A DNA stretch of 64,000 nt from Cephalotus follicularis (lineage: Eukaryota > Streptophyta > Magnoliopsida > Oxalidales > Cephalotaceae). Below, piece by piece: positions 3,036 through 63,990 of the stretch (its first letter is position 1; every line of letters begins with the position of its first letter). The DNA is taken from positions 1 to 64,000 of the forward strand of contig BDDD01005778.1 in the NCBI GenBank assembly GCA_001972305.1, given 5' to 3'. Under the pieces are notes generated by a model that was not told the origin of the DNA, made no database searches, and saw only the letters and a list, made by a program, of their open reading frames with translations. The position numbers and the translations under genes were made by a program.

Positions 3036-3190
3036 AAACGCTTGATGTCCTTGGAAGGCGTCGATGCCTATGGAAAAAAAGGGCGCACGTAAATGCATGT
3101 ACATGCATGTCGATGGAGACGAAGGCATCGACACCCTTGTACGAAAGAGGAAAAGACATCGACGTCTAAAGAAGACGTCGACGTCTTTGA
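3036..3190. repeat. TCGA palindrome array, type I, LTR A1 proximal slot
   Basis: Three doublets of palindromes or half-palindromes centred on TCGA or TTGA. The clearest is ACATCGACGTC followed by GACGTCGACGTCTTT at 3152-3190. Centre-to-centre distances are 19, 18 and 19 bp. The array starts about 200 bp from the LTR 5' end. Confidence 0.8.
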
Positions 3191-3949
3191 AAAGAATATT
3201 AGTCATGTTATGAACTGACAGAATAACGTGCAAGCGGAGAGAATCCAAGACCTTTTGTAGGCACCTTGAGACATGAAGTGGGACGTGTTGGGCATGCATA
3301 ATAGCCTCCTGACCTGCATGAATGAAGAAGGAAGAATAATGTGACAAATGTTTGTATGCATGCAACCTGCAAAGGGAGATGAGAAGGAAACAAAAGGGGA
3401 ATGCAGGAATTGAATGGGGAAGAGGGAGAGAACACGGGAGTGTTCATTTAGTTCAGAAAGAAAGAGGGAGAGGGAGCCATCTACATAAGAACAACCCCAT
3501 CCCCACCCCTCTCTCTCATTTAAAATGCCTAAGGAGAGGAAAGAAAGAAACAGTGAGTGTGAAGAGGGAGTTCCACCATTGATGAGCACTTTGAAGCTTG
3601 GGATCCAAAGCTTGTGGACCAGCAGCAAGGGACAAACTTGGGGCTGTTGTGATCAATTCTTGGAACACAAAGAGGTGGACTTACAAGGTTTCTAACTTGA
3701 AACCAGAGGTAGGGGAATTATATGTACACATTTGAGTTCAAAGCTAATGTTTTGTCATGAATAAAATGCATGAATTGCATGCCTATTTGGAACTGAATTG
3801 GATGTTTGGTTGATAATGTGAACACCTGGTTGTGTGGACTATGTATGCATGTTGATTTCTGGGTGAATCCCATGTTAGACTGCATATATATTAGGGTTGA
3901 ATACTCCTGTTTTGTGGATGGAACGAAAGAGACGGTGTTATGGGTTCTT

Positions 3950-4036
3950 AAACGTCGATGCTCATGGGGTAAGCATCGACGTCTTTATGCGATGAGGCAA
4001 TAGACATCGACGCTTAAAATAAGACGTCGACGTCTT
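3950..4036. repeat. TCGA palindrome array, type I, LTR A1 distal slot, part 1
   Basis: Two doublets: the first near 3951-3985 (spacing 21 bp), the second near 4003-4036 (ACATCGACGCTT then AAGACGTCGACGTCTT, spacing 20 bp). Confidence 0.8.
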
Positions 4037-4231
4037 GTTCAAACATTTGCAGACTGCAATGTTTACTTTTGGACTTTATGGGTTGTCGATGGGTTGATGA
4101 TCTCGTTATGCATATGGATAACCTGTTGTGCATGTTACGCCGTAAGTAATGTATCTGGAATTGCATGCGTGGTTGGAGGATGATTTCTTCCTTGAAATGG
4201 AGATTGGACGAGGTGATACCTCATGGTACCA

Positions 4232-4485
4232 CTTAAACGTCGCCGTCTATGGAAGGCATCGACGTCTTCGGTTGCTATGTATTAGGTCTAACGCATAACG
4301 CGAGGACGTGTTAAGGTTCCCACCTTAAGCATCGACATGTTGTGATGAACATCGACGCCCCAAGGGTTTTGGCTTGTAGGCATCGACGCCTACAGAAAAA
4401 CGTTGACGCGTTTCGTACTGTTACAAGCACTGACATTAGAAATAAACCTCGATGCTTTTGGACAATAAGCATCGACGCCTTTCCT
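4232..4485. repeat. TCGA palindrome array, type I, LTR A1 distal slot, part 2
   Basis: Four doublets with cores TCGA, TCGC or TTGA and flanks GCA/CGT or GCC. Spacings are 19, 20, 20 and 23 bp. The array is more decayed than the one in A2. Confidence 0.75.
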
Positions 4486-4600
4486 CCTGGTTTGAATGGT
4501 TTGACTCAATTTGGACCCATTGGCTCCGGAACGATTCGAGAAATGACTCTAGGCACGTTTGAGCATATGGTTGCATTGCATACTACTGTGAATTGAATTG

Positions 4601-5020
4601 TTGTGATACCGCATGATTTCTTAAATGATTTTGATTTGAGAAATGTGTATATGATGTTGTGTGGAAATATATATATTTTTCAAAAAGGATTGTACAAATG
4701 ATTTCAAATGATTGAAATTATGTATACGAAAATAAGTATTTTTGAAGGATTAAATGCTGTGCAAAAAGACTAGTTATAGATTTTGAATAAATGTAATATT
4801 GTCAAGTACTTTACACATAATAATTTACTTGGAAATGGATTGTGATGGAAATTGCTTAGGTTACTAATCATGGTGTGTAAGGTAACTGGGGGTTTCACAT
4901 TTGTGATACCGCATGATTTCTTAAATGATTTTGATTTGAGAAATGTGTATATGATGTGGTGCGGAAATGTATATTTTCCAAAAAGGATTGCGGAATGGTT
5001 TCACATAATTGAAATTATGT
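4601..5020 (+). repeat. ~120 bp direct duplication within LTR A1
   Basis: The segment starting TTGTGATACCGCATGATTTC at 4601 recurs at 4901 and stays alignable for about 120 bp, with scattered substitutions. The period is about 300 bp. Confidence 0.85.
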
Positions 5021-5216
5021 TATACGGACATGAGTATTTTCGAAAGATCGGAGTACATTTTTTAGTGTATTGTTTTCAAGTATTTTATGATACACTAAAA
5101 CTACTTGAAAAGGATTGAAAAAGGACTCTTATATATTTTAGCAAAATATATATATGTTTCAAGAATTTATACTATAAATCACTTGAAAAGGATAGTGAAA
5201 TTTTGATAACTACTAA

Positions 5217-5535
5217 ATTTTGTTGGGTGAGTAGCTGAAGCTGTAAGCTGTGTTAAAAAAGACTGATGCCCATTTGGGATGTTTTGATTGCAATTATTCA
5301 TTTTTGTTAATTACTTGTGATGGCTTGTTTGGGTTACTAAACTCTGTTGGGTAAGTAGCCAGGAATTCTACTACTGAGCTCTGTTGGGAAAGTAGTTGGA
5401 AGTTCCATATACGGTAACCACTAAACTCTGTTGAGTAAGTAGCTAGGGTTTTCCACGCAATGGTTACTGAGCTCTATTGGGAAAGTAGCTAGGGACTCCC
5501 TTTTGATTACTAAGCACTGCTATGTAAGTAACTGG
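5217..5535 (+). repeat. Degenerate tandem repeat in LTR A1
   Basis: Six copies of a block with core CTGTTGGGTAAGTAG (variants GGGAAAGTAG, GAGTAAGTAG), mostly preceded by TACTAAACT or ACTGAGCT. The units are about 45-65 bp. Alternate copies read AACTCTG...TAAGTAG and AGCTCTG...AAAGTAG. Confidence 0.75.
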
Positions 5536-7617: not shown

Positions 7618-8748
7618 TGTTGACGTTTATGTCTCAATCCGGGTTTTGATGATAACATATTTGTATTTAACAAAGTTTCTTTTTGTGCAAGTTAGGATAA
7701 AAAGTTGCAAAGTCAAAACATAAAATTGCAGATACAGGTCTAAACGTCGACGGTCACAATGAAACCGTCAGCGCTTTGTGAGACCTTCGATGCCCAAGGG
7801 AAAAGTGTCAATAGTTGAAGCATTTTGAGCAAAGGAGATATTGCTCAAACCGTCGACGCTCTGAAGAAAGCGTCAGCGCTTTAAGCTAAAGTGTCAGAGG
7901 TTAAGTACCCCATATCAGCGGTTAAAACCAGAGAAGTTTGAAGTCAATTAAATTGCACAAAGCGGTGATGATTAGAAGAAAGCATCAGCGCTTTGATCCA
8001 AGGTGTCAGCGGTTAAAGACTCTACATCAGTGGTTAAAACCAGAGACATTGGAAGGCAAATTAATTTGCACAAACCGGTGACGCTCTACACAAACTGTTA
8101 GCGCTTTGTGACAAACCATCGACACCAAGATCAAGACCTTCAGCGCTTTGAGCAGAACTTTATAATTCAAATTTTCAACGAACACATAAGCGGCGACGCT
8201 TTGAGGAACATCGTCAATGCTTTGCGTGGGGGGAACAAATTACTGACAGCATTTTTAATAAGCCATTATTGAAGGAACAAGTCTCAAGACAAAAATAACA
8301 CTTCCTAAGGCTGAAGAAACAAGTTTCAAGAAAAAGCTGCACTTCCCAAAGCAAAAAGCAGCTATTCCCAAGGTCTAAAAAATTATCACTATTAAATCAA
8401 TTCAGCTACAAACAAGAAGACGCAAGAAATAGAAAAAAAGAAGAAGATCATTCAAGCAAGAGATTATCAAGAGGAAAAAACCAAACTTTCATATCAACAA
8501 AAAGTCTGAACAAGATCTATTTTCAGAGCTACTATTCTTCTTGTAATCATATAGCCATATCAAACCTTTGAGAGGTTACACAAAACAAAACATCCTTGTA
8601 ATCCATACTTGTAAAGGGGAGTGAACCCTAAAGTGAGAAACGGGAGTGAACACCGTAGTGATTGAGGTCAATAATAGAAGATTGTAGGGTGCACCGAATA
8701 GCCCCTGTAAAGATATTCGAAGATTGTATTCGGGTGAAATACTAGTGG
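7618..8748 (+). mobile_element. 5' LTR of Sirevirus-like Copia element 2, 3' end missing
   Basis: Starts TGTTGACGTTTATGTCTC, as the LTR at 981 does, and interrupts Gypsy K pol after TCCTC. The body carries a long TCGA doublet array (7740-8225). The end around 8660-8748 resembles the end region of Sirevirus LTRs, but no terminal CA, primer site or gag start follows. Solo LTR I comes next, and beyond it the sequence is already inside gag. A deletion from the LTR end to mid-gag must have preceded that insertion. The left target-duplication partner cannot be checked because the element's right end is outside the window. Confidence 0.75.
7740..8225. repeat. TCGA/TCAG palindrome array, type II, in Copia LTR
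   Basis: About ten doublets with cores TCGA, TCAG or GTGA flanked by CCG/AGCG and CGCTTTG. Measured spacings in order are 21, 21, 20, 21, 20, 21, 20, 21 and 21 bp. Example: ACGTCGACGGT at 7744, then CCGTCAGCGCTTTG. It lies 120-610 bp inside the LTR 5' end, in U3. The spacers between arms vary in sequence but not in length. Confidence 0.85.
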
Positions 8749-10960: not shown

Positions 10961-11332
10961 TGCAGGCCTGGCTTGTGTTATGTCGTGTTGTGTTGTGTGG
11001 TGTTGGCATCCCTTGCCCAGGACCCCTGGAAAGACGTAGTGTTACGTTCTCTGCCCTGGCTCCCTCCCCTGGCATGTTCCTTTAGTGGAACGATGCGTTT
11101 GGACAGTGGTTGTGGTGCGTGTTACCTCTAGTTAAACGGTGAGTTTTGGAATGGTTTTATGTAAGGGATATTTACAGTTATGCCATTTCCTATTTTATTT
11201 CTTCCCTGCCATGTGTTTTGGCGTTGTTTCTTCTGGCATGCGTGGCGCTTTTTGCTTAGAGGAGATGGGAAAATCCTCATTTCTGTCGGGCGATTCGTCC
11301 GAGGTGGTTATCGTGAGGGACGGGTCGTCACA

Positions 11333-11697
11333 AGTGGAATCTGAAGCCAACCATGTCATAATTTGTGCCATAAACTCTAGTGAATTTAATAGAGTTTCAT
11401 CTTGCATTTTTGCTAAAGAAATGTGGGATAGACTCGAAGTTACCTACGAAGGTATAAACCAAGTAAAAGATGCAAAAATAAGTATGTTAGTTCATGACTA
11501 TGAATTGTTCTCAACAAACGAAAATGAGGACATTAAATCTATGTTTTCTAGATTTACGAATATTATTAATGTTTTGCAATCGTTAGATAAAACTTTCTCT
11601 AACAGTGAATTGGTGAGAAAGATTCTTAGGTGCTTGCCAAGATCGTGGCTGCCCAAGGTAACGGCAATCGAAGAAGCCAAGAATCTCAACCTTCTTC
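11333..11697 (+). pseudogene. Sirevirus-like Copia gag, 5' fragment
   Basis: Encodes part of a Copia gag of the UBN2 type: NHVIICAINSSEFNRVSSC, then AKEMWDRLEVTYEG and KISMLVHDYELF. Gag proteins of this group assemble the particle that packages the element RNA. The N-terminal part of gag is absent; the sequence to the left is solo LTR I and, before that, LTR. The fragment ends at 11697, where the Gypsy B complex begins, and gag resumes at 28459, with TCTTC duplicated on both sides. Within this piece the frame is open. Confidence 0.85.
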
Positions 11698-12042
11698 TGT
11701 AACGCCCCTGACCCGAGCCCACTAAAAGCTCAAAGCGAACCTCGAGGATCGATCGCGTTACGTTGGGGGTGAAACGTTACATCCTTTGGTACTCTTCTCT
11801 AAAAGTACATAACATCATAAATTTCATGTCTTGCAACATAATACATAATCTTAAATTCATACTTTACACATAATGTAACGCCCGATATTTTCCTGAATGT
11901 AATATTTTGATTTATGATGTAATCTTAAACTTGGAATAATGAGACTGTTGAGCTTTTGGACTCAAAAGATGCTTGCAAACCCTGCTTATGGACTTAGAAA
12001 TGGAGTGTGTATGTTAAAGCTTGAAACGGCGCTGTTTTGGCC

Positions 12043-12200
12043 AAAAGACATCGACGTCTTTTGGAAAGACGTCGACCCCTTTGTGAGCTAGGGCACACGT
12101 GAATGCATGGGCATGCACGTCGACTCGGGAAGGAGGCATCGACACCTTCTTACGATTGGACAAAGACATCGACGTCCAAGAAAAGACGTCGACGCCTTTG
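12043..12200. repeat. TCGA palindrome array, type I, LTR A2 proximal slot
   Basis: Clear doublets: ACATCGACGTCTTTT with GACGTCGACCCC (spacing 21) near 12047-12083, and ACATCGACGTCC with GACGTCGACGCC (spacing 20) near 12166-12200. A weaker pair lies between them. Confidence 0.88.
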
Positions 12201-12939
12201 CATGAATGGCCAGCACGTTCTTCATCGGCAGAACATCATGCAAGGGGGATTTGTTTAGGGGCTTACCTAACGCCTTTTTGAGTACTTTGTGGTGTGTTGT
12301 GCATGTGGGTGTGTTGCCAGAACATGCCCTCACATGATTCATGCAAGGGGGAATCCTCACCTGCTACCTACACTGTAAAGAATGGTTAAAGAATGTAAAA
12401 GAAATGCAAAAAAGGAGTAGGTGAGAGAGAGTTGGAATGTGGCTGTCAAATGCCAGAAGGAGGATGTCGGGGGAGAGCCTTCTGCATAAAGGACACCCTC
12501 CCCACTTGTCTCTCTCGTTTTACAACACCAGAAGAGAGAGAGAGAGTGAAACAGTGACTGTGTGTATTCCACCATTGTTGAGCTTGGACCTTGGACCTTG
12601 GAGCTACTGGTGCAGCTACGAGACGGACCTGGAGGAGCTGCTGTGACTTCGTGGGATACTAAAAGAGGTGGACTTTTGGTTTCTAACTTGAAGCCAGAGG
12701 TAGGGGAAAGCCATACTGTAATTTTGGGTTTGACATTAATACATGGTCTATGGTTTTGGGGTGTATAAAAATGCATGTTTCTTGTACTGGTTTTGCTACT
12801 GGACTGATGCCATGACATGATAGATATGTTTGGAGTATATGTGTGTTGGTTGTTGCTATGAAAACCCGTTATTATGCATGATTGCGGATTGTTATGACCA
12901 CTGTTCGATGAATCGTGAGGTTGAAGACGACCCCTGTCA

Positions 12940-13222
12940 AAAAGACATCGACTTCTTTATAATGACATCGACGTCTTTTATGTTTTACCAAGTTACTGAC
13001 TGAGAGGGATCGACGTCTTTGGGAAGACATCGACACCCCAGGCTGCTTACCTGGTTTCTGTTGAAAAAGGCATCGACGCCTTTTAGTTAGACATCGACGC
13101 CATTGCATGATACACTGTCGTTTGAGGTTCCTTCTGTAAAAGAACACGCTGACACTGAGGCTTGGATTTCGACGCATGACTCGAAGACATCGACGTCTTT
13201 GGGAAAGACGTCGACGTCTTTG
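12940..13222. repeat. TCGA palindrome array, type I, LTR A2 distal slot
   Basis: Four doublets with spacings 20, 20, 21 and 21 bp. The last contains the perfect palindrome AAAGACGTCGACGTCTTT at 13204-13221. Confidence 0.9.
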
Positions 13223-14159
13223 TTACTGTTTGGAGATTTCTTCATCGGATGACACGGAACGATCCCAATTCTTATTTGGGTGCATTTGAGCATATGTATG
13301 CATTGCATATGTACTGTTTACTGCCTGATTGTGTACCGTTAGAGCATTGTTTAAGATTTCAAAAGCGTTGCTACTTTAGAAATGCAAAAATGAGCTCGGA
13401 ACGAGATATTTTGAGTATGAAAATATGTATTGATCAAATAAACGTATTTTCAACCGAACGGATAAACAATTTACACTACTGAAACTGTTACTGATATTTC
13501 CTACTAAAAATACTTATTTTCAAATGTTGTCAATTTTGGAAACATTTTGGAAAATAACTGCCTGTTGTTGATCAAATCGATCATTACTGTTTACTGTACT
13601 GTTACTGTTTAAATGCACTGTTTGCTCTGTGAATTGAAAACATTTTATTTGAAAACAACATTCAAAGGAATGAGCTCAAAATAGCTCAGTAAGGTGTTTT
13701 TATAGTAAACACATTTCATCATAACATTTTTCTAGTCAATACATATAACTAGAACATTTCGTAAAGCATATCACTTTTCTAATTACAAACTCGTAACTAG
13801 AACATTTCATAAACATAGAAGTCATAAAAACCTTAATGAACCCTTTACACCGCTTCATCGGGGCATTGTGCACTCCCCGACTACTATCCTTACATCACAT
13901 GCAAGCATCTCGCTCCATTAACATTGAGCATCTCGCTCCATTCCCCTTGGATCGCAATCCAAGGGCGGTTCATTCATCATTTACTTTGAGTGATCAGCTC
14001 AAAGCAATCATAAAAATCATTTCATACCATTTCTTTCACAATTCATAAACCTTTTCTCTTCATTTGAGTAATTGATTCAAATGAGTTCATAAAAAAAACA
14101 ATTTTGCATAGCTTTTCTAAAACTGATAATTTATATAGAAATAAGCATTTTCAGATAAA

Positions 14160-14640
14160 ACGTAAAACATAAACATTAAAGTAGACATCTTTATGAATTC
14201 AGAAAGCTCAAGATCATAACAATTGGTTGAGAATTGAATCCGTTATGAATTTTTGAAAGTGGCTGGTTCCATATGAAAATAGGGCATGAGCAGTAAAATG
14301 AAACATCAATTCTTATCAAGAATTCGATAGAATTTCAAGATACATAAAACATAACAGTTAAAGAGTACATCTTAGTGTTTTCAAAACATCCAACCATTTA
14401 ATTTTTCATCAAGAAACGAGCAATATATGATTTAAGGAAGTTTCTGCATAATCCAGGAATAAAACAGTACCCAAACAGCAATATAAAACATGAATTTTCA
14501 TCAAGAAAACGATAGAATCTTGAAACATGCAAAGGATAAAAGTTGAAGAGGACATCCTAACATTTCAGAACTTCCAACCATTGAAAAATTCATCAAGAAT
14601 TGAACAATATATCAATAGAACAATCTTCTACATAATTTTG
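14160..14640. repeat. ~182 bp tandem repeat in the B LTR
   Basis: Three degenerate units. The landmark AACATAACAGTTAAAG (variants) followed by ACATCT or ACATCC recurs near 14165, 14347 and 14532. The same repeat is present at about 26515-26995 in the other B LTR, and two units occur near 62455 and 62637. Confidence 0.75.
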
Positions 14641-15027
14641 AATCAAAACAGAGGAAGCTTTGACATAAATGGGTATAGAATTTCCTTACTTTGCTTTAAA
14701 ATTTCTTTCTCTTTTGTTCTCCCACGAATTCTCCACTTCACTCTCAGCAGGAGCACTTTCCTTCTCAGCCAAAATGACTGAGTTCAACCCTCTTTGTCAT
14801 TAAATAGAAGGATTACTTGGGAGGTAAGTCTTCTCCCCTTCTCACACAACTCAACTCTCTCTCTTGGCAGCCCATGTGATCAAATTCAACCAATCCAGGT
14901 GATGACACTTGTTAGATCATCTGATAACATCTCATATCATCCTCCCCGGGCCTTCCACGAGTCCAAAATTAAAGATTTTCACTCACAAAATGCCAAAAAG
15001 GCAGATTTTGCATTTTGTCTGTAGCTC

Positions 15028-15292
15028 AAAGCGTCGACGTTTTCTCCCTAAGCGTCGCCGGTCACGGGCTTGACCTGAGTTGTCCACTTCTATCCCGACT
15101 AAAGCGCTGACGCTTTCTTACAAAGCGTCGTCGCTTTATGTCTTCATCCAGGTCAACTGACACACTTGACTTTAACGCGTCAATGTTTACAATTAGAGCG
15201 TCGTCCGTTTCCTAAAGCGTCGACTCTTTCAATAAAACTGTCGGCGCTTTAGACATCTTTGTCAACTCTTAACTTTTTAGATTGACGCTTTC
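15028..15292. repeat. TCGA palindrome array, type II, B left LTR
   Basis: Four doublets with cores TCGA, TCGC, CTGA, TCGT, TCAA or TCGG and flanks AAGCG/CGCTTT. All four spacings I measured are exactly 21 bp. It lies 200-470 bp from the LTR 5' end on the coding strand. Confidence 0.88.
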
Positions 15293-15334
15293 AACATGAC
15301 GTTCATTCAAAACAAATAGCCAATTTCAATTTCT

Positions 15335-15415
15335 TCCGGGGGAGCTGCCCCTGAGCCCCTGCCCGCTGACCAGGCAGCGGGACCCCTCGTCCGCTCACCG
15401 GGGAGCGGAACCCAA
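15335..15415. repeat. GC-rich inverted repeat block in the B LTR
   Basis: Contains CCGCTCACCGGGGAGCGG and GGGGGAGCTGCCCC, which can form stable hairpins. A longer version is at about 27685-27775 in the other B LTR. Confidence 0.65.
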
Positions 15416-15500
15416 CGGGTCCCTTGAACTATTTGCCAATTTACACAATAGCAATCATTTTCCATAATTAATATCTTAAATGGAAATTTGGGCCATTACA

Positions 15501-16874: not shown

Positions 16875-18348
16875 TGTCACACCCCGTTCAAGAGAAACGT
16901 AACATTAAAGCGGTAAAGGCAATTAACCTAAAACACAGCTCATGCAAAACCATAAAACTTAAAACTTTTCCAAAGTACAACAGTTGCGGAAGCATAACAG
17001 AACATAAGCTGTAAACTTGTAACGTGCATCCCATACCACATGTAACGCCCCTGATCCGAGTCCACTTTATGCTCAAAGCGAACATCGGGGAGTCGGTGCG
17101 TTACGTGGGGGTGAAACCTTTAATCCTTTAGCAATCTTACCCATTGCTAATATTTATCCAATTTCTCATATATATAACTTACAACTTGTCATACTACAAT
17201 TTAAATATTATACTCTCATTGAAATCATCATATTCATAGTCAACATCGTATATCTACACAGGATCTATCATAAAGCATTACACAGCGGAAAACATTAATT
17301 GATAATGTCATAAACTGTTATACAAAAAGAATGTTATTTCATCACATAATTTCTCTTCGAAATATTACTTATGAACTCCTGCTAAAGCTCGACTTTCCTC
17401 ATTCAATCTCTTCTTGGAAAATTTTAGTTGAAAACAAAACATTGAAAGGAGTGAGCACCAAAATAGCTCAGTAAGAATCATAGTCATAAAAGTTATCGAA
17501 ATCCATTATTTTTGATAATCTTTATCAAAACGTTTCCAGATCATACATTTCAAAACAACATTGAAATTTGTCTGTTAGTTTTAATGAACTAGAATATTTC
17601 ATCTCGAAATCCATTTCTCTGATAATTTCATAACATCAAAACATTTCTAAAATCATATATTTTCTGGTATATATAGTCCAGCCATACTTGGAAACATAAC
17701 TTCTTTGAAAACCATTGTCTTGTATTATTTTATAAAGCCAAAACATTTCACATTCATTTCCTTTTCTGTTCATATCTCATGAAACAGAACATTTTATTTC
17801 TTTTCTCATGAATCATAATATTTCATAAATACTGAGGGGTTGTAAAAACGTAAAGAACCCTGTTGAACCTTCGCTTCACCGGGGCATTGTGCACTCCACG
17901 ATTACTATCATTACTAAGCATGCATGCCTGAGAGCACTCTCCGCTCCTTGACATTGATATTTTACTAGATTAATCCCCCCTGGATCGCAATCCAGTCGTT
18001 GTTCATCTCAGTTTGTTGCATTTTCTCATTTGTAAAAATAATCATTTCTTAATACTTCGAGTGATCAGCTCAAAGCATCCATAAATAACTTTGTACAACA
18101 TTTTCTAGAATTTATATTTCAAACAGAAATATTTTAAAATAGTAATATATAATTTCGTTAAGAAATTGGCAATAATTCAACATAGAATTTAAGAATTTAT
18201 ATAAATTAATATAGACATTTACCACGAATATTGGCAGAAATTTAAAATACAGGAACGTAACAATTATAAAAGATATATAAAAATAAGTTATTTAAATATC
18301 GAGCATAAAATTGCTTAATTGAAATATTAAATTAAAATTAACTTCCTC

Positions 18349-18520: not shown

Positions 18521-18887
18521 AATTAAATTGAGTTGTAAAATATCAACATAAAATATTTTAGGAAGGTAGGTAAAATACTTTTGAGTAAAAGAATAGAGTT
18601 TCCTTACATTGCTTTATTCTCCTTCCTTCTTTCTCTACGTTGAAGAAATTTCTACACCGAAATCTCCACAAAATTTTCCTTCCTTCCTTTCTCTTCTCTC
18701 TTTCTCTTTCTCTCTTCTCCTTTCTCTCTTCTTCTTTCTCTCCTTTTCTTCCTCTCTTCTGCCGAATGCACTGAGCAAAGGAGCAGTATTTATAGGGGAG
18801 TTTCAGCCGCCTCAAATTTGTCGTTTTCTCCATCAAGTCGCCACGTGTTCTCTTCTTTCACCCATTGCTTGACACGTGTCCTCTTTC

Positions 18888-29333: not shown

Positions 29334-29363
29334 AAAAGTCTCTTTTAAGAAAAAAAAATTGTA

Positions 29364-29822: not shown

Positions 29823-29837
29823 ATTTATTTTTTGTAG

Positions 29838-48380: not shown

Positions 48381-48844
48381 AAAAGCTGTCACGCCCCGTT
48401 CCCGAGCACCCCCGCCCGAGAATGGCCGTGCCAGGTGGAAGGATCCCTCACCTGGATCTCTAACCAAAACCCCATCAAACAAAGGCTAATGCTAAGGCCA
48501 AGGCAGGCGTTAAAAACATGCTGCCGAGGAGAGCCGCGCTCCCCAGGCCAAACGCACCTAAGGCATAAAAACAAGAAATGACGGAAGAAACACACGGCAG
48601 AGAAGGGACAAAGAAGGAATGGCAAAACTGTAATTAACCCTTACATAAAACCATTCGGAAAACTCACCGTTTAACTAAAGGGACACACATGACAACCACT
48701 GCCCAAACGCACCATTCCACTAAAGGAACATGCTAGGGGAGGGAGCCAGGGCAGAGAATGTAACACTACGTCTTGCCTGGGGTCCCGGGCAGGGGATGCC
48801 AACACAACCCAACACAACATGGCGTAACACAAGCCAAGCCTGCA

Positions 48845-48955
48845 CCCCATCCTAAAACATACCTTACCCGGACGAGCCATCCTCGGGTATGTCCTCATTG
48901 GACGACTAACTTCAGACATGTCCTCCCCAGGCATGTCCTCCCCAGGCAATACCCA
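48845..48955. repeat. CATG-centred palindrome array, E right LTR
   Basis: CATGTCCTCCCCAGG occurs twice in tandem (15 bp period) at about 48917-48947, with weaker upstream copies, some mutated from CATG to TATG. Confidence 0.75.
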
Positions 48956-49445
48956 TACAAACAAGGATATGCACGGGCACAAGAAAACGACAACGTTTAA
49001 CATGAGCTACGCCTGGGATCAACACAAGGGCCCAGGGACAAACGCCAAGCGTGGGACAACTACTCGGGGTCCCACCAATACTCAAATTACGCTACGGAGG
49101 TGAAATCTCACCCTGGCCCAGCGCCCATGGGATCCACCAGGGCTCACCCACCAAAACATCTCCAGGGACCGAGCTGGTCCGAGGTCGTGAGGATGGGCAA
49201 AACAAAGGAAACTTGCTTACTCCCACTTAATGCCTACGGCATGCCCGGGGACAACACCCGAGGATACCACCAGACCTCAGCTTAGGGTCAACCAACCCGA
49301 TGTAATAACCGCGATTTCAACTAATGTATATTGTACAATGATGAATAAAATATGCATTTTTTTGAGATTTTATGAAGGGTTATCTTTTGAATAGAATGGA
49401 ATTGGGATAAATTCTTAAATGAAAGTAGAGAAATAAAGTTCTGGT

Positions 49446-49585
49446 GCTAAACCGTCAACACTTAACGCCATACCGTCGACGCTTTGATCCCAGACACGTG
49501 TACAAAACGCGCAGTTGAGAGGTGGGTTATAACGCACAAACCGTCGACGCCAAAGAGAAGCCGTCGACGCTTTGAACGGTGTCAG
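49446..49585. repeat. TCGA palindrome array, type II, LTR D proximal slot
   Basis: Doublets CCGTCAACACTT/CCGTCGACGCTTTG (spacing 21) and CCGTCGACGCC/CCGTCGACGCTTTG (spacing 20), about 145 bp from the LTR start. Confidence 0.9.
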
Positions 49586-50523
49586 GACTATGATACACGC
49601 CTGTTAGAACAAAGCAGTGGTGCCAAATGGTTCCTTGCAAGATTGAGAGTCCAGCGACGTGTCAGCCATGCAAGGGAAACATTACCAGCTCTGTATAATG
49701 CCAGACTAAGGAGTCTTGCATGTGCTATTCCACCTGCAAGTCTGCATACCTGCAATCACAGCAGAAAAATGTGAGAAAGAAACAAGAGTGAAGGCATGCA
49801 TGAGGGAGAGAGAAATTGTCCACAATGAAAGTTAGACAAACTGAGGAATTAAAGTCCCAAATTTGAGCCTTTATATCAGTTGATACATGAGCTGATTGAG
49901 TGTTAGAAACACTGAGAAATAGAGAGACAATATGGGCAGTTGCTAGAGGAATGGCTAGAGGTTGCATAAGGAACTTAAAGTTCAAAGTGGAGCTTGGAGC
50001 ATCACCTAGGAATTGGTAAGTCACTAGTGCGAAGTACACTTGTTGTAGTTAAGTTGATGGTTATGTAAACATGTTGATGTCAATAATACACCTACAGATT
50101 GAACATGCAAATCGGTAATTGGATTGTGGAAGTAATTTGAAAATGGAGAATTGATTTAAAGGAGATTAGAGGCTTAGATGTTCTAGTAATCCTTTTGATT
50201 CAAACCAGATAATGATAATAGTAGCTAATTTGTATATACATACTTATTTCATGGTTATATCTTCTGTTGAAAATGCAAAATATAGAATGAAAATTGCTGG
50301 GATTGAAAGATTGAAAGGAAGGTGAAGAACATTGGACATAGAGAGAGAAAATAATTCAATTTGATTTCGGGATTGCTTTTAAGGTAGGGGTTTTGACATG
50401 TTTTTGAACATATAACATGTATAATGTGTAGTGATGGTTGAGATTTGATTGCATGTTGATTTGGACTGAGATTGAATGAAATTATGCATGCTCTGTTTTG
50501 TTGTTGCTCTTGGAAATTGCTAA

Positions 50524-50690
50524 GAACGCCAGAAGCGCCGACGCTTAGGTTCAGACAGTCGACGCTTTGGTGTGTAAAAATAGCATGTTAAGACTTAGAA
50601 TGTCGATACTTTACGCTTTGATAGTGTGTCCAGTAACGACGCTTAATCTCCAACCATCGACTCTTACAGTGAAACTGTCGACGCTTTAGG
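50524..50690. repeat. TCGA palindrome array, type II, LTR D distal slot
   Basis: Doublets GCCGACGCTT/AGTCGACGCTTTG (21) and CATCGACTCTT/TGTCGACGCTTT (21), with decayed sites between them, about 1.2 kb from the LTR start. Confidence 0.88.
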
Positions 50691-53530
50691 ACAGTAATTG
50701 TGGGAGTGCTTAATTGATTGATTGAATTGGTTGTGGTTGTGAATATCCTTGAACTGCTATATTGTTAGCTGCCATTACTGTTTATTAAAGAAATTACTAC
50801 TATTTTATATAAATTTCAAGGATTATACCAACTTAATGCTTTAAACACAAAGAATGTTTTTCGACAAACGGATTCAGAAAGAAAATATTATTGTTATACA
50901 AATTTCCATTTTCCTCTCATAAGAGGTACTGTTATTGTTTAGTTCTCCAAGAGAACCACTGATTGAATTGTTATGTTTTCTAAAAATGAAAACTACCACT
51001 ATATTGCATATTATAGATATATGTAATATTTTCATTGAATGGATTGAATTGATTGTCTATGCTATTGCCGTTAGCCGAGTGATGGTAGATGTCACTGGCT
51101 ACGGAGGTGGTCCTATGTGCCAGGAGTTGGCTAGAGTATCCACCCAAAAGATCTGCAATGCAGATCTTGATTGTTAAACTGCCCGCTAATGCCGGTAGTA
51201 ATTGACCTGATCTATCATCTTTAGAGTGTAGAGTGACAGTTCGGTGGTGCACAGTTGGTGCTAGGAGTTAGCGACATGTGACACCCAAACCACTGTATTG
51301 ATTGATTGTACCCTTGCGTGGTATTCTTGAATTGTATTGTCTATGGCCACTTGGCATGATTGCTCATATATATTGGAATACTTATTGATATATGTCATTT
51401 CAATAAACTGTCATACATGTTTACAATTATATATTCATTCTCATGCATTATTTCCTACTTAGCCGAGTGAGGACAAAGGCTAACCCCCTACAATTTCAGA
51501 TTAAGTGAAGGCGTCGGGGAGGTGCTGCTGAAGCTTTCAGAGAGCTTCTATTTTGGTTAGGTTGTTAATTTATGTTTTGTATTGTAATGAATGTTCACAC
51601 TCCGTTGTTGTTGATTACTTTTCCGTATGTAAAAGGATAATTGTTTGTACTGTATAAGCACGTAGTATGGGCTGCGTGCAGATAATTTTATAATCCGGCA
51701 AAAAATGGAATGCTTCCGCTTATTTTTTTTTTGAATGTTGTTTAACGATTGAACGTTGGATTATTGTTTATAACTGATATCACCACATATGCTTGTCTTA
51801 ATAGAAAATGGGTTGTGACACCCGAGCTGCGAAGTCAACCTAAGGTTTGACTAACCATGAACATAGCCACCCCTCCCCCGGCATCTCAGCAGAGGTGCCA
51901 CGCACAAAGGCCTCGCAGAGAAACACTGAAGTTTCGCCCAGGCTAGGGCTGGGGAGACCTGCTACTCTGCCCAGGGTCAAACAATCCCCAAACTCATACG
52001 TCATCCCTGCATGCCCAAACATTTAGCATAAACAGCACCAGGGCTAGGAAAATAGCTCAAAACAAGTATATAAAACAAGGGAATTATATACACGGTCCCG
52101 GGCAAAATGTCAAGGACCGACAACATCCAAAAAGCATATACATGTTTACAAGAAGAAGGTTTTACAAACATAGACATAACCAAGTCTATACAAAAACCCC
52201 ATGAATGTCCCCAAATACATGAAGGTGCCCGTGGCCAAGAGCCATCCTAAGGTGCTGTATCCGACATCTACCTCTTTCAACACGCTGTCCTTAGTGGATC
52301 TCAAGAACCCTGCTGCCCCGCTCCCTCTGCACACAAAACAGAGAGGGGATTAGTCCAACTGACTAGTGAGTAAGATCAAGGAATATCCTGGGCAAACCCA
52401 CTTCCACTGAGGTTCCAAGAGCCAAGGTGAAACGTGCTCTACCCCAACTGGGCCAAAGGACAACCCATATCCCCTGCTCAACAAAGCAATGTAGAGGTGA
52501 AAATATACAAGCATATCTATAAAAAGGAAAACCCAAGGAGATGGCAGAGCTACCAACTCAATGACCGACCTCAAGGAAAGAGGATAAACAACAGTTTATA
52601 TGTCAAAACATGCCAGGGACCCAAGGATCAACAAAAGATCAACTCCAAGGATCAACAATTATCAAGGGGACTACTAGTACTGTATCAATCACAAGCACAT
52701 TCCACACACGCACATGCACACATCAAACTCACACACTTCCATAGTTGGAACCACCTCGACAAGCACAAATAACAACTCCGTTGACGTTCCATCAACGCGG
52801 TCATGGGCTACATGACTGTACACATCCCTCATATACACATATAGATACCCAGTTCCAGAGTACCGCATGAACATCGATAGAAGGACTTCGCAAGCACTCC
52901 TTCCCCAAAAATCACACGTTGGCGCACCTCACTCCATGAACATCAATCGAGGGGCTACGCAATCCCACCCCCGTCGGTAATCACGAGCTCAGCACTACAC
53001 CAGGTGAACCTCGATCGAGGAGCTACCTCGTCGGCAATCACATAGTGTTAGTATCGTCTAAGGGCCCCGCAAATCACCGCTCAACTCAACCCTTGACGAG
53101 ATGATAGAGGAGAACATCGGCTCAGTGGTAAGTGTATCACCACGTAGACCATCTAGTGGCGGCAATCTCATACATAACCAAGCACCAGTACCTAGTAACC
53201 AGTACCCGAGGATAACAAATGATATCAAATAAAGCATGAATACTTAAACAAAAAAGAGAAACAAGAAATTCAACCCAGGAATTGAGCCCTCAGCTCGAAA
53301 ACAACAGTATTCACATGCAATATCAACAAGATGACAAGAGAAGAAATCCTAGTCAAAGATAATATCATGGAAGGGCATATAAACAATAAACTCTCAGTTA
53401 TCAATTGATTGAAAGAAGAACATCCCACTCACTAGTGTCAGTAGCTTCCTCAGCTAGCTTCCTTATTGTGCGGACTCCGTGCCTAGATCTTCCTCTGCAA
53501 GGCCAACACACAACAACGCTTAGATACCAT

Positions 53531-53939
53531 TGTGACACCCCACTTAAGAGTGGGCAAGAGGAAAGGGCTATCCATGAGATGAAGCCACCAAGAGGAAAGG
53601 GCTATCCATGAGATGGAGCTGCCCTTGTGACAGGAATGAACCGGATCCATCGAAATGGGGGAAAGTATGGCTGTGCTATATAAGAAATGATCCTTAAACC
53701 TAATTACATGAGGCGCATTTTGATGGATTGGCTGAGGAGTTAGTGGAAAATCCAAGGTTAAGCGTGCTACGCTCAGAGCAAAACCAGGATGGGTGACCTC
53801 CTGGGAAGTCTGACCAATCCATTAACTAGGACAAAACCGTGATGGTCCACGTGGAAACACAGATGTATGGGCTCTGTATGTTCTGCGTGGGAAAAAAAAG
53901 CGGACAATTTCTCATGTGGTTAAGGATTGGGTCATTACA
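53531..53939 (+). mobile_element. Cassandra-type TRIM solo LTR (409 bp)
   Basis: TGTGACACCCCAC...GGGTCATTACA, with a perfect target duplication ACCAT (53526-53530 and 53940-53944), inserted in the E right LTR. It contains a 5S rRNA-derived segment, the hallmark of Cassandra terminal-repeat retrotransposons in miniature, which are non-autonomous and rely on other elements' proteins. A 24 bp stretch with GGAAAGGGCTATCCATGAGA is duplicated at 53562 and 53593. Confidence 0.93.
53751..53810 (+). other. 5S rRNA-derived segment within Cassandra LTR
   Basis: AGGTTAAGCGTGCT and GGATGGGTGACCTCCTGGGA match the 3' half of plant 5S rRNA, with changes in the middle. The 5' half is not recognisable. This part includes the internal promoter (A and C boxes), so polymerase III signals may have been captured. 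It is not a functional 5S gene. Confidence 0.9.
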
Positions 53940-54206
53940 ACCATGAACAACATCTCTGAAGCTATGCATGAACCACATACATCCATGAAAACCAAGGTGA
54001 AGCTCTCCCTCGGCCTCAAAGATCGTGCCTGCACCAACCATGCAACGGACCAAAACATACTGAGGCGGACACTCACCTGCTAGACGCATAGACGGGTGAA
54101 AGAAAGTCCCAACCTCAAACAGCGATCAAAGCTTCAGAAGAAAGATGAAATATGAAAGCTCACTCTCCCAAAATGCTTCTTCAGGCGTGAGATGATAGAT
54201 ATGATG

Positions 54207-56976
54207 TGTAACACCCCCGGACTGCGGGAGTCGTCACAGGTCATACTACAGAACTTATCATAACATAGCATAACTTATCTAAACATAGGCATAACTTTAG
54301 CTGAACATAAACATTTCTTTATTAGCCAAAACGTGGCGATCATAGCATAACTGAAAAAATTTTCCAAACTTAAAACTTAACATATTTCAATAGTCAAATA
54401 CCAAAACATAAACTAAAATAACATATTGTTCATGACCACTACAATAGAAGACACATATAGGGATCACACTCCTACGGATCCACGACATAAGGTGGCCAAC
54501 TCTCATTCACACATTCCCCCGCTGCTTCTGGTAACCTGCCGCATGGAAAACAAAAACGCGATTGAGAAAACCTCAGTACGGATAAAGAAAGTAAAAGCAG
54601 TAAATAATAAGTTTAAAAGCAGTCAGATCTCAAGAAAATTCATAACAGAAATCTTAAGCAATTAAAACAGTTTAGTCATATTCGAATTTCCATAAAATAC
54701 CAATTTCATATCTTTCGAAACATTTACGAAACATTTCAAAAACATCATTTCATGATTGATAAAGTTATACTGAGCCACATATCATATCACATTTCATAAC
54801 ATATATCGGCAAGGGAGGCGCTAATTCCACATGCCCATTAGAATTGAAGTGTACGGCACTACACACGTCAATTCTCACATATCATTTCACATCACATATC
54901 CATATACTATACATAGCAGATCCATAAATCCACCACATGGGATTTATTCATAACATTCAGAGACGTCGTAGACTAATCACACCGCTACGGAAGTGTCATG
55001 TCCTCGTGCCAGGCCTACGACATGCCTATGGTATGCCCCATAGGTGGGTACAATACTCAGTATTCAATCATTTCGAAAACATCACTTTAAAACACATAAA
55101 TATGCCTTCTCAAAACATATTTGAAAATCGTTCACAACGATAACATACATTTCATAGTCAAAATATCAACTCATTTATTTTTCGTTATGAAGAGATGATC
55201 ATTTTATAACATATCAGAACGTATCATAGCAATAAGAATAAAGCCGAGAACATTCAAATTTTGTAAAGGTCAAAAACCGACTTTATTTTTAAAACACATC
55301 AAAACCATATAACATAACCAAGTTCTTAGACGAAGAAACATAGCATAAAACAAAACTAATTTCAGTTCGATAAAACCAGATAGTCAAAGAACGATACAAA
55401 TCCATACCTTATGCGTTCACAGAAGCACTTATGGAAAGATTGTTAACTTAAACTCCCCTTTGAAGAACAACAATCTAAATGATACAAAACCATTCATATA
55501 AGGGTCTAGGAAATATTAGAGACATAAAACAGACTCCTTACGGCGTTTAGAAAAGACCCGGTTCGATTCGACAAACAAATGAATCAAAACAGTAATTTTC
55601 TGGGCAAAACAGCTGACTGTTACAGGGCTCTAGTCGACTGTTGGAAGCTTGGCAGTCGATTAATCATAAGGACCAGCCGACTACTCAAACCAGATTGCAG
55701 GCAGTCGACTATGATAGAGGTCCAATCGACTGTGCATAGCAAGGAAGTCGACTATTTCATATGGCAGCCGACTACACAACACAAGACAGTCGACTGTTTT
55801 CAATAGGCAGTCGACTACACAACCAAACCAGCCGACTGTCCACAAGAATAGCCGACTGTTCTGGATGACAGAACAACAGAAACACAACATTTTCATGGAA
55901 AAACTTGTCCAAATGAGTATAACTTTACACCAAAGACATATGAACATATACATATGTCATTGTATGATGTTTAGATGACGCAAGAACACATAATTGACAT
56001 TACCATGTGACCAGTGACTAAATACAAGAAAAGAGACCAAGTGGCATCTAAAGAAAACCTACATATAACAAACCAATCAGCTATCCAAAGTCACATTCAG
56101 TTTCTGAGATTAGATTACAACATAAACAGATGCCAAAGGACTGATCAACTGGTCCATAACCTATGACATAGATTTAAGTGGTTGTAATCACAACTCTAAC
56201 AACCTATATGCATAAGAAAACCAACAACAATGTGAAACAATTCATCACAGCAAGGATTACTAACCTGTAATGATTTAACAGACACTGAAAAATAGTAGGA
56301 AGAACACCTCAATGCCAGGGCAATCGGTTGAGCAATAGGAAGCCAAAGAGAAGAAAACAAAAAGACATGAGCAGCCTTAAATCGATAAAAGAATAACATA
56401 ATTCTTACATCCGATATAAGAAGAACAAACCTTATATTGATGAAGAACTGATCAAAGAACACAAACAAGCTACTAATTTGCAGGATTCAGCAGTGACTTT
56501 GCAGAAAAGAGGGAGGCAAAATATAAACATGGCAATGCCACTCATAAACGGAAATAGGAGAAAAAGTTGATTACATATGGAAGAAGAGAAGATTTTCAAG
56601 CAATGAGAATGGAAAAATAAGATTGAAAGCGTGTGGAATTCATAAGGGAAAGAGGGAGTTATGGGAGAAAGAGGGAGAAGAAAGGAAAGAAAAGGAGAAA
56701 GAAAAAGAAAGAAAGAAAAATAAAATAAAATAAAATAAAAGAATTTTAAAATAAAAAGGGAATTATTTTGATAATTTAAAATTTATAAACATAGGCCCAA
56801 GCCAACATTGCATTAACATATCCAAAAATTCAGGCTAGTATCAAACAGCCCAAATCACATAAGCCCAAAACATAGGGCAATGGACTTTAAAACAAAACAA
56901 TATTAAAAGCCCAAAAACATCATATATATATATATATAATATCCATAAAGCACACACGAACAAGCAGGGTATTACA
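54207..56976 (-). mobile_element. Gypsy G left (3') LTR (2770 bp)
   Basis: Plus strand TGTAACACCCCCGGACTGC to GCAGGGTATTACA, followed by a polypurine tract (GGGTGGTGGA on the minus strand) and pol 3' end. It begins inside the E right LTR after TGATG. A type III palindrome array lies at 55608-55860, a purine-rich stretch at about 56640-56735 and a short TA repeat near 56922. No gene is visible. Confidence 0.9.
55608..55860. repeat. TCGA palindrome array, type III, LTR G
   Basis: Six doublets of CAGTCGACTG-type sites (variants CAGCCGACT, AATCGACTG). Spacings are 21, 21, 21, 20, 21 and 20 bp. It lies about 1.1-1.4 kb from the LTR 5' end, unlike the B, C, F and Copia arrays. Confidence 0.9.
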
Positions 56977-57659: not shown

Positions 57660-58237
57660 TGTAATGACCGCAAATTCAATTAATGTATATTGATTTCCAT
57701 GTTTAAAATAAATATACATTTTAATTGAATTATCTGCCCAATTATCATAATTTTGTAATTGGTAATTGCTTGGGAAGAATTGGGAGGCAATTTGGGGGAA
57801 TTCCACTTAAGAAACCCTAAAAATAGTCTTGACAGCCGACTGTCACAGGGGAACAGTCGACTGTCTGAGTCGTGCTATGGACAGTCGACTGCCCAATGGT
57901 TCCAGTCGACTGGAAATTCGACAGAACATGTGTCTGTGCAGGTGTTAAACTGAGCTTGAGCGTGGTATGCTTAATGACAGGTGTCGTGGGCATGCACAAA
58001 CGGCCAAGACATGCAGAGATAACCCTTGCATGTGCTCTGCAAGCCACAAACCTGCAACCTGCAAAAATCAAAGAGAGAAAGGTGAGTAATGACAAGGAAA
58101 AGAAGCATGCATGTGAGAGAGAGAGAAGGAAGGAAGGAGGCTGAGTAAATGCTCTGGCGAATTCAAAGGTTTCTAACCTCTATATCAGCTGTCCAAAGGC
58201 TGAACCTGAGTGTTGGAAACCACTGAATTGAAGGGAA
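57660..58237 (+). mobile_element. D-family LTR, 5' fragment (plus orientation)
   Basis: Starts TGTAATGACCGCAAATTC and follows LTR D to about 58237, where it breaks off and oppositely oriented gag sequence begins. A type III palindrome array is at 57833-57915. The break position is accurate to about 10 bp. Confidence 0.85.
57833..57915. repeat. TCGA palindrome array, type III, D fragment proximal slot
   Basis: CAGCCGACTG/CAGTCGACTG (21) and CAGTCGACTG/CAGTCGACTGG (21), about 173 bp from the LTR start. Confidence 0.92.
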
Positions 58238-58401: not shown

Positions 58402-58492
58402 TCTGTTTCCTATATGGAATGACATACTCATCAGGAAACAATACACTTAATTACCAAGAAACTTATCCCTGCGATAACTTATTTAAAGATAA

Positions 58493-59784: not shown

Positions 59785-59885
59785 ACAGTCGGTTTTTCAT
59801 AAGAATAGCCGGCTGTTTTCATTAAGCAGTCGACTATTTTCCTTAACAGTCGGCTGTTTACATTGAGCAGTCAACTGGTTTTGTC
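59785..59885. repeat. TCGA palindrome array, type III, D 5' LTR distal slot
   Basis: CAGTCGG/AGCCGGCTG (20) and CAGTCGACTA/CAGTCGGCTG (20), then a single CAGTCAACTG. Confidence 0.85.
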
Positions 59886-60783: not shown

Positions 60784-60850
60784 ACAGTCGACTGTCCTTA
60801 CTGATGCCAACGAGTCAACTGTTGCCTTACAACAACCGGCTGTTCATTCA
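60784..60850. repeat. TCGA palindrome array, type III, D 5' LTR proximal slot
   Basis: CAGTCGACTGTCC, GAGTCAACTGTT and CAACCGGCTGTT. The spacing is wider here (27 bp for the first pair). LTR H is inserted inside this array; its other side continues at 63383-63425 with CAGTCGGCTG. Confidence 0.8.
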
Positions 60851-62690: not shown

Positions 62691-63037
62691 CTCTCTTTCT
62701 TGCAGGTCACAGGTCACAGTGTTTTGAACACTTCACCCTCTCTTGCATGCATTACTTAGGTTCGTTTTTCTGCATTTGTCTCCGTCTTATGCCAGACTAT
62801 GCCACCTTCACTCTATCCAACATCTGCATGCACACATGTCCTTCCTCCCCCTTTCATTTATTACATGCATATCCAAGTGTCACTGAAATTCTCACAACTC
62901 AGATATTGCAGGTTCAAGGAGCTGTATTGCATGCTCAACACATCCCAACTCATGTCCTAAAGTGCCTGCAAGAGACCTCAAAATACTCCATTTGCACGTT
63001 ACTCTGTCAGCTGAGGAACGTGCCCGATATTCGCCTC

Positions 63038-63190
63038 AAAGCGTCGTTGTTTTCAAGAAAGCGTCGACTCTTTGGACATCACGCGTTATGGCATCGATGC
63101 TCTATCCCACGTCGACACTCAAGTGCCTTTCTTACTTAAGTGTGCGTTTTAAATGCTTAGGCGTCGATGCTTCACTCAAAGCGTCGGTGC
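63038..63190. repeat. TCGA palindrome array, type II, LTR H
   Basis: AGCGTCGTTG/AGCGTCGACTC (20), CATCGATGC/CGTCGACAC (18) and GCGTCGATGC/AGCGTCGGTGC (20), about 190-345 bp from the H 5' end. Confidence 0.82.
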
Positions 63191-63571
63191 TTAGCCTCCA
63201 AAACTGTATCGTTTGACTAGATTTGCAATATTAACAATTCATTAGCATTCTTCCTCCAAAATCAACATTACTAGAGTTTGGAAAACATCATCAAATTCAA
63301 AAAATCCATCCTTTTATTAATTCCACAATAAAAGTACATTTACACTGTGAAATTACAACATATGAAAATCCCGGGCATTACAAACCCAACCAGTCCATTG
63401 TTACCTTGTGACAGTCGGCTGTTAGGTGTTGATTTTTGTTACTTAAGTTTATTCCCTCAATTAAATCCATAGCCACCAATCATATAACAAATGGGATATT
63501 AAATCTCCATATAATGCATATTTTATTCATCAAGTGTACAATATACATTAATTGAAATTGCGGTAATTACA

Positions 63572-63695
63572 TTACTATTGGTTGAATCTCTTGTGTTGAT
63601 GGTGGCTCAATAGTTCTTCTCTTCTTCTTTTCCCCAAGATGCTTCTTCTTTGTTCTTGAGCCTTGTCCAACCTCAATGTTCTCAGTTCTCGGCAT
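63572..63695 (-). CDS. Start of an unidentified basic protein
   Basis: An ATG at 63695 opens a frame of about 41 codons (MPRTENIEVGQGSRTKKKHL, then Lys/Arg-rich, then Pro/Thr/Gln) that runs into the D-family LTR at 63571. The protein is strongly basic, like a nuclear targeting stretch, and I recognise no family. It lies about 120 bp downstream of a TATA-like box. It may be the N-terminus of a retroelement ORF or of a host gene broken by the LTR. The left continuation is not found in the window. Confidence 0.4.
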
Positions 63696-63814
63696 ATTTG
63701 GTGATTTGGTGTGTTGTAGAACTAATTTTTTGGAAGGAAATCGTCTTGTAAATCGCCAGAGCAGTGATTTTGAAATTTAGGGATTTAAATTTAGCGCTAA
63801 CAGATGAGGAAATC

Positions 63815-63823
63815 TTTTTTATA
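63815..63823 (-). promoter_or_regulatory. TATA-like box upstream of the 63695 ORF
   Basis: TTATAAAAA on the minus strand. The palindrome array begins about 10 bp upstream and the ATG is 120 bp downstream. Confidence 0.55.
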
Positions 63824-63829
63824 ACCCGA

Positions 63830-63990
63830 CTAAAGCATCAACGCTTTTATTTTAAGCGGTGTCGCTTCGTTAATTTTTAAATTTCGAGCACTAATTTTAG
63901 TGCTAAAGTGCTGACGCTTTTAATTCAGGCATCGACGCTTTGCATATTTTGCAAAATTCTATTTCTAAGTGCAGTGTTAAGTGCTGACGC
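63830..63990. repeat. TCGA palindrome array, type II, at window end
   Basis: CATCAACGCTTTT with AAGCGGTGTCGCTT, TGCTGACGCTTTT with GCATCGACGCTTTG (spacing 21), and TGCTGACGCTTAC. It probably continues past the window. The surrounding element is not identified. Confidence 0.8.

Follow-up and report, generated by a model that had tools for sequence, protein, structure and literature searches.

Helically phased arrays of palindromic sites in the long terminal repeats of gypsy and copia retrotransposons of Cephalotus follicularis

In a 64,000-nt stretch of the Cephalotus follicularis genome (assembly GCA_001972305.1, contig BDDD01005778.1, positions 1 to 64,000; hereafter the window), the long terminal repeats (LTRs) of retrotransposons carry arrays of short palindromic sites centred on YCGR, spaced in step with the DNA helix; one type of site is common to LTRs of gypsy and copia elements, and homologous LTRs have exchanged one type for another at the same place. 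We see about an even chance that these arrays serve as enhancers: adjacent sites on one face of the helix would bind a dimeric activator, probably encoded by the host and existing in at least two specificities. The arrays would act in the U3 region of the LTR, with a second array past the promoter in some long LTRs. One dimer would occupy each YCGR-centred quasi-palindrome of 10-16 bp, the two-turn (and also three-turn) spacing would place neighbouring dimers on the same DNA face, and dimers binding together side by side would activate the LTR promoter. A broader proposal, possible but rather doubtful, is that unrelated LTR retrotransposons of this genome (two gypsy lineages and Sirevirus-like copia elements) all draw on a single dimeric activator system of the host, which has two or more half-site specificities, the types changing at a fixed place with the two-turn pitch kept.

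TCGA occurs 250 times in the whole window. With four duplicated stretches masked and 200 shuffles as the null, RTCGAY was found 107 times against 35 in shuffles. The initial annotation had described TCGA-centred palindromes paired in LTRs at about 20-21 bp, and this held up well: 20 pairs of RTCGAY sites were 20-21 bp apart, whereas the shuffles averaged 0.06 and none of the 200 had more than one. YTCGAR, RTCGAR and YTCGAY gave no pair at this distance in the masked window; among other tetramers CATG gave 10 (2.4 expected), TGCA 9 (2.4) and ACGT 3 (0.5), with the remainder at 4 or fewer. A sequence-blind scan for perfect 12-bp palindromes also placed the TCGA core at the top of its ranking (9 vs 0.4). 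The distances between RTCGAY sites fell into groups at 18-22 bp (n=27), 28-32 bp (n=11), 42-44 bp (n=5) and 48-52 bp (n=18), with none at 23-27, 33-41 or 45-47 bp.

Scanning with symmetric matrices yielded 124 sites, or 109 without the duplicated stretches, and for 82 of these 109 the nearest neighbour lay 18-23 bp away. The distance distribution is far from the flat one that had been named as the outcome speaking against the pattern: 45 distances fell at 19-23 bp (4 at 19 bp, 13 at 20, 25 at 21, 2 at 22 and 1 at 23) and 12 at 28-33 bp, with none at 10-18, 24-27 or 34-39 bp. Organisation in doublets, as first described, is only part of the picture, since longer rows are present as well, including rows of at least three sites at 20-22 bp.

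The pattern extends beyond the window. For a genome sample we took 20 stretches of 10 kb (200 kb, of which 14,285 bases are N) at preset places independent of the motif in the 1.58-Gb genome. In it, 41 pairs of RTCGAY sites lay 20-21 bp apart, where evenly spread sites would give 0.46; this null is less strict than shuffling, and the count includes both LTRs of one L010 element as well as L013 and L027, whose arrays are similar. The other contexts of TCGA gave 0, 1 and 0 pairs. Across the whole genome, a fixed doublet pattern with a distance of 20 matched 7,721 times on one strand and 7,786 times on the other, some loci matching on both; its reversal matched 12 and 15 times.

Two types of site were distinguished, and the 20-21-bp pitch is seen with both. 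The class B site reads CAG-Y-CG-R-CTG with uninformative flanks, and the A/C site is longer, with RCR half-sites (RCR-TCGA) and A-rich outer flanks. Classes A and C were at first kept apart by eye; since their matrices ended in the same consensus and single LTRs carry both labels, they are treated as one type. TCGA, proposed earlier as the core, is indeed the commonest, but the core is better written YCGR: among 37 class B sites it was TCGA in 19, TCGG in 7, CCGA in 7 and CCGG in 2. The half-site most enriched in doublets was CAG, at 25-fold in the window and 18-fold in the sample, followed by GCG, ACG, ACA and GCA; GTG and CCG were enriched two- to threefold in the sample, in which the half-site types of the window recur. 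Doublets were also looked for in viral contigs, with no match for class A and one for class B.

Asymmetric class B cores mostly point one way within an array, so that the sites may have polarity. TCGG outnumbers CCGA by 5 to 1 in the LTR L3 (20433-21655) and by 7 to 0 at L013:5839-6336, and CCGA outnumbers TCGG by 5 to 0 at L019:1373-1514, 7 to 0 at L021:8066-8556 and 4 to 1 at 55631-56321.

The window looks like plant DNA made up chiefly of nested LTR retrotransposons. Domain scans covered 30 of the 58 stop-to-stop open reading frames (ORFs) of at least 110 aa, and LTRs were mapped from their ends, target duplications and mutual similarity. The scans located Ty3/gypsy pol pieces on the minus strand at about 2-7.5 kb (E1) and 15.9-24.6 kb (E2), and on the plus strand at 39.9-45.3 kb (E3), besides a chromodomain-bearing one at about 34.4-37.7 kb; copia pieces were also among the scanned ORFs. 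E2 and E3 retain both LTRs, L1 is a complete solo LTR and L4 a further one, and L2, L3 and L5-L10 are LTRs or fragments with no coding part recognised. The site-bearing features are as follows.

L1, 2835-6260, plus strand: solo LTR inside the minus-strand Ty3 pol of E1, whose RVT_1 and integrase ORFs flank it; CTATC 5-bp target duplication on both sides; termini TGTAACGCCC / GGGGTGAGACA; 15 matrix sites, every one of A/C type.
L1 first array (A/C), 3036-3195, plus strand: upstream of a TATA-like CATAAG near 3486 (by eye).
L1 second array (A/C), 3941-4490, plus strand: downstream of a splice-donor-like AG/GTAGGGG near 3711.
CopC, 7618-8748, plus strand: copia LTR, Sirevirus-like at its start; 7 sites of A/C type, TCAG being the core in several.
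L2, 11874-13634, plus strand: truncated L1-related LTR; arrays at 12037-12206 and 12934-13228; 13 matrix sites of A/C type.
E2 3' LTR, main part, 13635-15500, minus strand: remainder at 11698-11873; 7 A/C-type sites at 15035-15242.
L4, 17041-19307, minus strand: E2-type solo LTR with flanks CCACA / CCGCA (one mismatch); A/C-type array at 18895-19130, with a TATA box downstream near 18787-18794.
L3, 19308-21813, minus strand: L1/L2-related LTR of B type, its final piece at 16875-17040, flanks GCGAT / TACTT unmatched; arrays at 21514-21655 (upstream of CATAAAA near 21270) and 20437-20686, B sites 15 of 15.
E2 5' LTR, 25591-27876, minus strand: 94% identical to 13635-15500; 6 A/C-type sites at 27384-27591.
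E3 5' LTR, 38178-39629, plus strand: LTR of an Athila-like Ty3 element; 8 A/C-type sites at 38389-38675, upstream of TATAAAA at 38772-38778.
E3 3' LTR, 45775-47226, plus strand: the same 8 sites as the 5' LTR, at 45986-46272.
L5, 49301-51820, plus strand: LTR with A/C-type arrays at 49456-49565 and 50539-50679 and a TATA-like box at 49872-49877 between them.
L9, 54207-56976, strand unsettled: probable LTR, limits set by eye; B sites 10 of 10, at 55614-55853.
L8, 57660-58250, plus strand: LTR fragment; 4 B-type sites at 57837-57907.
L6, 58508-60856, minus strand: L5-homologous LTR with its start missing, B type at 59810-59872 and 60789-60837; after the LTR comes a primer-site-like TGGTATAAGAGC.
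L7, 62691-63382, minus strand: LTR start akin to L1/L3; 5 A/C-type sites at 63045-63185.
L10, 63383-63573, minus strand: LTR fragment akin to L5/L8; a single B-type site at 63416.
Window-edge sites, 63839, 63912 and 63933, unstranded: A/C type, the last two 21 bp apart; the sole doublet outside listed LTRs.

Reverse transcriptase (RT) identity is 38% between E3 and E2 and 58% between E1 and E2. E2 is called chromovirus-like, as its integrase region resembles that of the chromodomain-bearing element; the domain scans found no chromodomain in E2 itself. E3 has gag, protease, RT and integrase, a purine tract and a primer site, with TTTTTGGCGCCGTTGCCGGGGA after its LTR and 97.3% identity between the LTR pair; from the primer site and RT motif we take it to be Athila-like. 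The start of CopC is common to the LTRs of L010, which follow a GGGGGAG-AT/TG junction.

In 12 LTRs the first array begins 131-286 bp into the LTR, first arrays spanning 131-577 bp overall; the start of L6 is missing. Inspection by eye placed TATA-like boxes after the first arrays in L1-L5 and E3. Arrays beyond the promoter occur in L1, L2, L3, L5 and L6, and those of L1-L3 follow the conserved splice-donor-like AG/GTAGGGG. Other short motifs lie close by: between the doublets of the first arrays of L1 and L2 (3083-3110 and 12094-12120) there are repeats of the CATGCATG type and an ACGT box, which in L2 reads CACGTG, and L5 has ACACGTGT near 49494. The ACGT box and the repeats in L1 and L2 resemble G-box and RY elements.

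The type is uniform within each LTR, which supports the proposal of an activator with distinct specificities. All but one of the 37 B sites are in L3, L6, L8, L9 and L10, which have no A/C sites; the 37th (37386) is lone and weak, and the other listed LTRs hold no B site. The A/C type is common to E2 and E3, both gypsy, and to the Sirevirus-like copia LTRs (CopC and L010), and the E3 LTR has A/C sites like those of E2 yet no similarity match to other LTRs. Homologous LTRs, in turn, have swapped A/C for B at the same place. Between L2 (A/C) and L3 (B), a 73% identical donor region precedes arrays that do not align, and an 85% identical block begins 43 and 33 bp, respectively, past the final clear site of the array. 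Within this block L2 has a weak site, 13369, that barely exceeds the matrix threshold. Blocks 74% and 79.5% identical flank the second arrays of L5 (A/C) and L6 (B), whose first sites come 41 and 42 bp after the end of the shared block. In a 75% identical block of L1 and L2, the site distances are 67/67, 31/30 and 19/20 bp. Position and spacing thus persist in these homologous comparisons while the letters change. Since the A/C type is common to unrelated elements and is exchanged for B in homologues, the protein would most likely be host-encoded and have at least two specificities.

Arrays that change coherently also recall an arms race, and a protein concerned with silencing could be what binds them, either an element-encoded anti-silencing protein similar to VANC or a host protein that recruits repression. 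VANC arrays belong to VANDAL transposons, DNA transposons with their own VANC gene, and consist of family-specific short motifs repeated in non-coding parts. The arrays described here are alike in being short family-specific motifs repeated in non-coding transposon parts; they are specific to LTRs, and nearly every core contains a CpG. In VANC systems the binding protein is encoded by the element. Among the 30 of 58 ORFs scanned here no VANC-like gene was seen, E2 and E3 showing gag-pol domains only; solo LTRs, having no internal part, could not reveal one. The sharing of the A/C type by unrelated elements also argues against such a factor, and a place directly upstream of promoters would be odd for a repressor target. 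We give this explanation little probability.

A DNA-bound factor is also suggested by the phasing. Site distances of 18-74 bp tend to fall close to multiples of a period of about 10.3 bp. For matrix sites in the window the best period was 10.4 bp (R 0.535, n=166 distances, 14-110 bp), or 10.7 bp at 36-110 bp (R 0.413), and none of 500 jittered sets equalled either value; the sample gave R 0.376 at 10.3 bp, and R 0.253 (p 0.003) at 36-110 bp. The helix was separated from a 21-bp unit by dropping distances within 3 bp of multiples of 21 in the range 24-110 bp. A remainder of 7-10 modulo 21 was then found in 58 of 82 retained distances in the window and 31 of 57 in the sample. At a pitch of about 10.25 bp, such distances correspond to three, five and seven helical turns. 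The paired binding of dimers on one helix face, suggested at the outset, is favoured by this phasing and by the direct register of partner sites described below. The sites themselves, their symmetry, spacing, phasing and LTR location, and the sharing and switching of types are observed; that a protein binds them, that it would be a host dimer and that it would activate the LTR is what we infer.

Alternatively, the pitch could be a by-product of replication: slippage or unequal exchange would multiply a palindrome together with its spacer, about 21 bp in all, leaving an inherited pitch under no selection. Neighbouring spacers are more often alike than random ones (0.386 vs 0.273, n=69), so tandem duplication helped to build the rows, as those of three or more sites at 20-22 bp also suggest, and gives part of the pitch. 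The spacers had been described as free in sequence and fixed in length, of which the constancy of length stands and the freedom is only partial. As a full account the by-product explanation is unlikely: spacers differ at most positions, yet the tight 19-23-bp peak has empty flanks; L1 and L2 retain their distances at 75% identity; distances of about 31 and 52 bp do not fit multiples of a 21-bp unit; and the pitch is equal in both site types. The narrow range of lengths despite spacer divergence suggests that length is kept by selection.

Adjacent palindromes could instead pair as RNA or single-strand hairpins, selected for their structure in small-RNA production, RNA packaging or dimerisation, an alternative that the initial annotation had raised beside a 21-nt small-RNA register. 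Five chosen arrays folded as RNA gave z of -7.2, -2.4, -4.9, -3.6 and -4.0, with 0, 5, 0, 1 and 0 of 200 shuffles folding as well, although rows of palindromes would be expected to do this anyway. Palindrome-rich regions of maize Sirevirus LTRs are also small-RNA hot spots with predicted structure, in the available parts of two reports (PMC5311732, PMC10760457). Were partner hairpins selected, the inverted match between partners should exceed the direct match. Over 109 doublets from the window and sample, direct match was instead the higher (0.641 vs 0.594; 52 doublets vs 23, with 34 ties), though the window alone gave a small difference (0.674 vs 0.657). When both cores were asymmetric they pointed in the same direction in 9 cases and were complementary in 1, and position +-3 gave 17 vs 5. 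Partner sites are thus direct repeats, which argues against a selected hairpin. The three-, five- and seven-turn phasing is likewise not predicted by RNA stems. No co-variation was seen in the free columns of B sites (+-2 and +-6 to +-8), the other columns being fixed one-sidedly by the search pattern. The outer columns of A/C sites do co-vary (-6/+6, 0.58 vs 0.44; -7/+7, 0.72 vs 0.67, which is weak), and this may stem from mixed subtypes or from a stem. On balance we judge hairpins improbable.

Several observations weigh against the activator model, among them this A/C co-variation and the likeness of neighbouring spacers. Raw RTCGAY sites are only weakly phased beyond 36 bp (p 0.01-0.07 for periods of 10.25-11 bp), and class B has three 28-bp gaps that are off phase. 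All LTRs of class B lack a recognised coding part, so that sharing across lineages is shown for A/C alone. The sites of L9 lie more than 1.1 kb from both ends, with no array near its start. Equal density outside LTRs had been named as another outcome that would speak against the pattern; 49 of 50 doublets in the matrix scan and 30 of 30 in the raw scan lie inside listed LTRs (46% of the window, duplicated LTRs counted), but the figure is partly circular, since some LTRs were delimited by their arrays, and the contrast is overstated by the absence of LTR-like repeats at 31342-34185 and 48390-54210 from the list.

The closest described arrays are those of Sireviruses, and the early statement that no element of this form had been described was too strong. 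In 13 Sireviruses, palindromic repeated motifs (RM) precede the TATA box of the LTR; they were called Sirevirus-specific, with a CGG-CCG core in all motifs but one (Tnd-1) and no common binding protein identified, according to the available text of PMC2829016. As there, the sites described here are high-copy short palindromes upstream of a TATA box, varying in sequence with the element. Two of the 13 RM are centred on TCGA, Vitis CGGTCGACCG and Tnd-1 ACAATCGATTGT (PMC2829016, part of the text); CGGTCGACCG was absent from both the window and the sample. RM start 200-400 bp into the LTR (same source, in part), compared with 131-286 bp here, partly nearer the end. The RM count of at least eight copies per element was reached in 5 of 15 site-bearing LTRs (L1 15, L2 13, L3 15, L9 10, E3 8), the rest having 1-7 sites each and several being truncated.

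Gypsy carriers, core and pitch set the present arrays apart. E2 and E3 are Ty3/gypsy, while CopC and the L010 LTRs are Sirevirus-like by their GGGGGAG-AT/TG junction. The CGG-CCG signature is not seen here, the cores being mostly TCGA, TCGG or CCGA with CAG or RCR half-sites. For the 20-21-bp pitch and helical phasing, no mention for RM was found in the part of PMC2829016 available, and the second array past the promoter in some LTRs and the switching of types between homologues likewise go beyond what that part describes. Among the papers listed by a literature search that covered few subscription journals, we saw none that reported a 20-21-bp pitch, helical phasing in LTRs, or gypsy LTRs with arrays of this kind; for the class B 10-mer, no title among the matches listed seemed related. 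The LTR palindrome clusters of PMC5311732 and PMC10760457 (available parts) are similar in lying in the regulatory region, with high sequence variability and rapid evolution; unlike the arrays here, they have the consensus CACCGGAC-NNN-GTCCGGTG and were read through structure and small RNAs.

Among host binding sites, the zinc deficiency response element RTGTCGACAY offers a comparison. It is a 10-bp palindrome with a GTCGAC centre, like the sites here, is bound by a dimer of group F bZIP proteins, and occurs twice in the ZIP4 promoter (PMC9643250, in part); a Brachypodium bZIP motif is similar to it (PMC5894230, in part). Its flanks are TG, in contrast to AG in class B and C at that place in A/C. 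The exact consensus was found 0 times in the window and twice in the sample, and the sites are therefore not assigned to this element. Its near absence also counts against the activator model as far as the protein family is concerned; that the putative protein is bZIP-like would be a guess by analogy.

In this one genome, then, gypsy and copia LTRs carry arrays that follow the same rule of spacing and have one type of site in common. If the broader proposal of a single host system is correct, a regulatory code would be stored in the spacing, with exchangeable letters. The thousands of matches to one doublet pattern alone should make a binding protein findable, and homologous LTRs with exchanged types are natural pairs for probing the rapid turnover of retrotransposon promoters.

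Some minor features of the elements were also noted. Both E3 LTRs contain a 51-bp tandem repeat of about three copies downstream of the TATA box (39084-39232 and 46681-46831). In CopC, a 112-bp tandem repeat (7863-8081, 1.9 copies) duplicates some sites, several of them TCAG instead of TCGA. E2 and its nested LTRs seem to split a plus-strand copia element (11136-31412), with gag at 11136-11699 and a zinc knuckle and integrase at 28430-31412 that would derive from a single element. Finally, an ORF at L010:8326-9738, adjoining an array near L010:9838, matches Transposase_32, a putative plant transposon protein, with E 2.3e-22.

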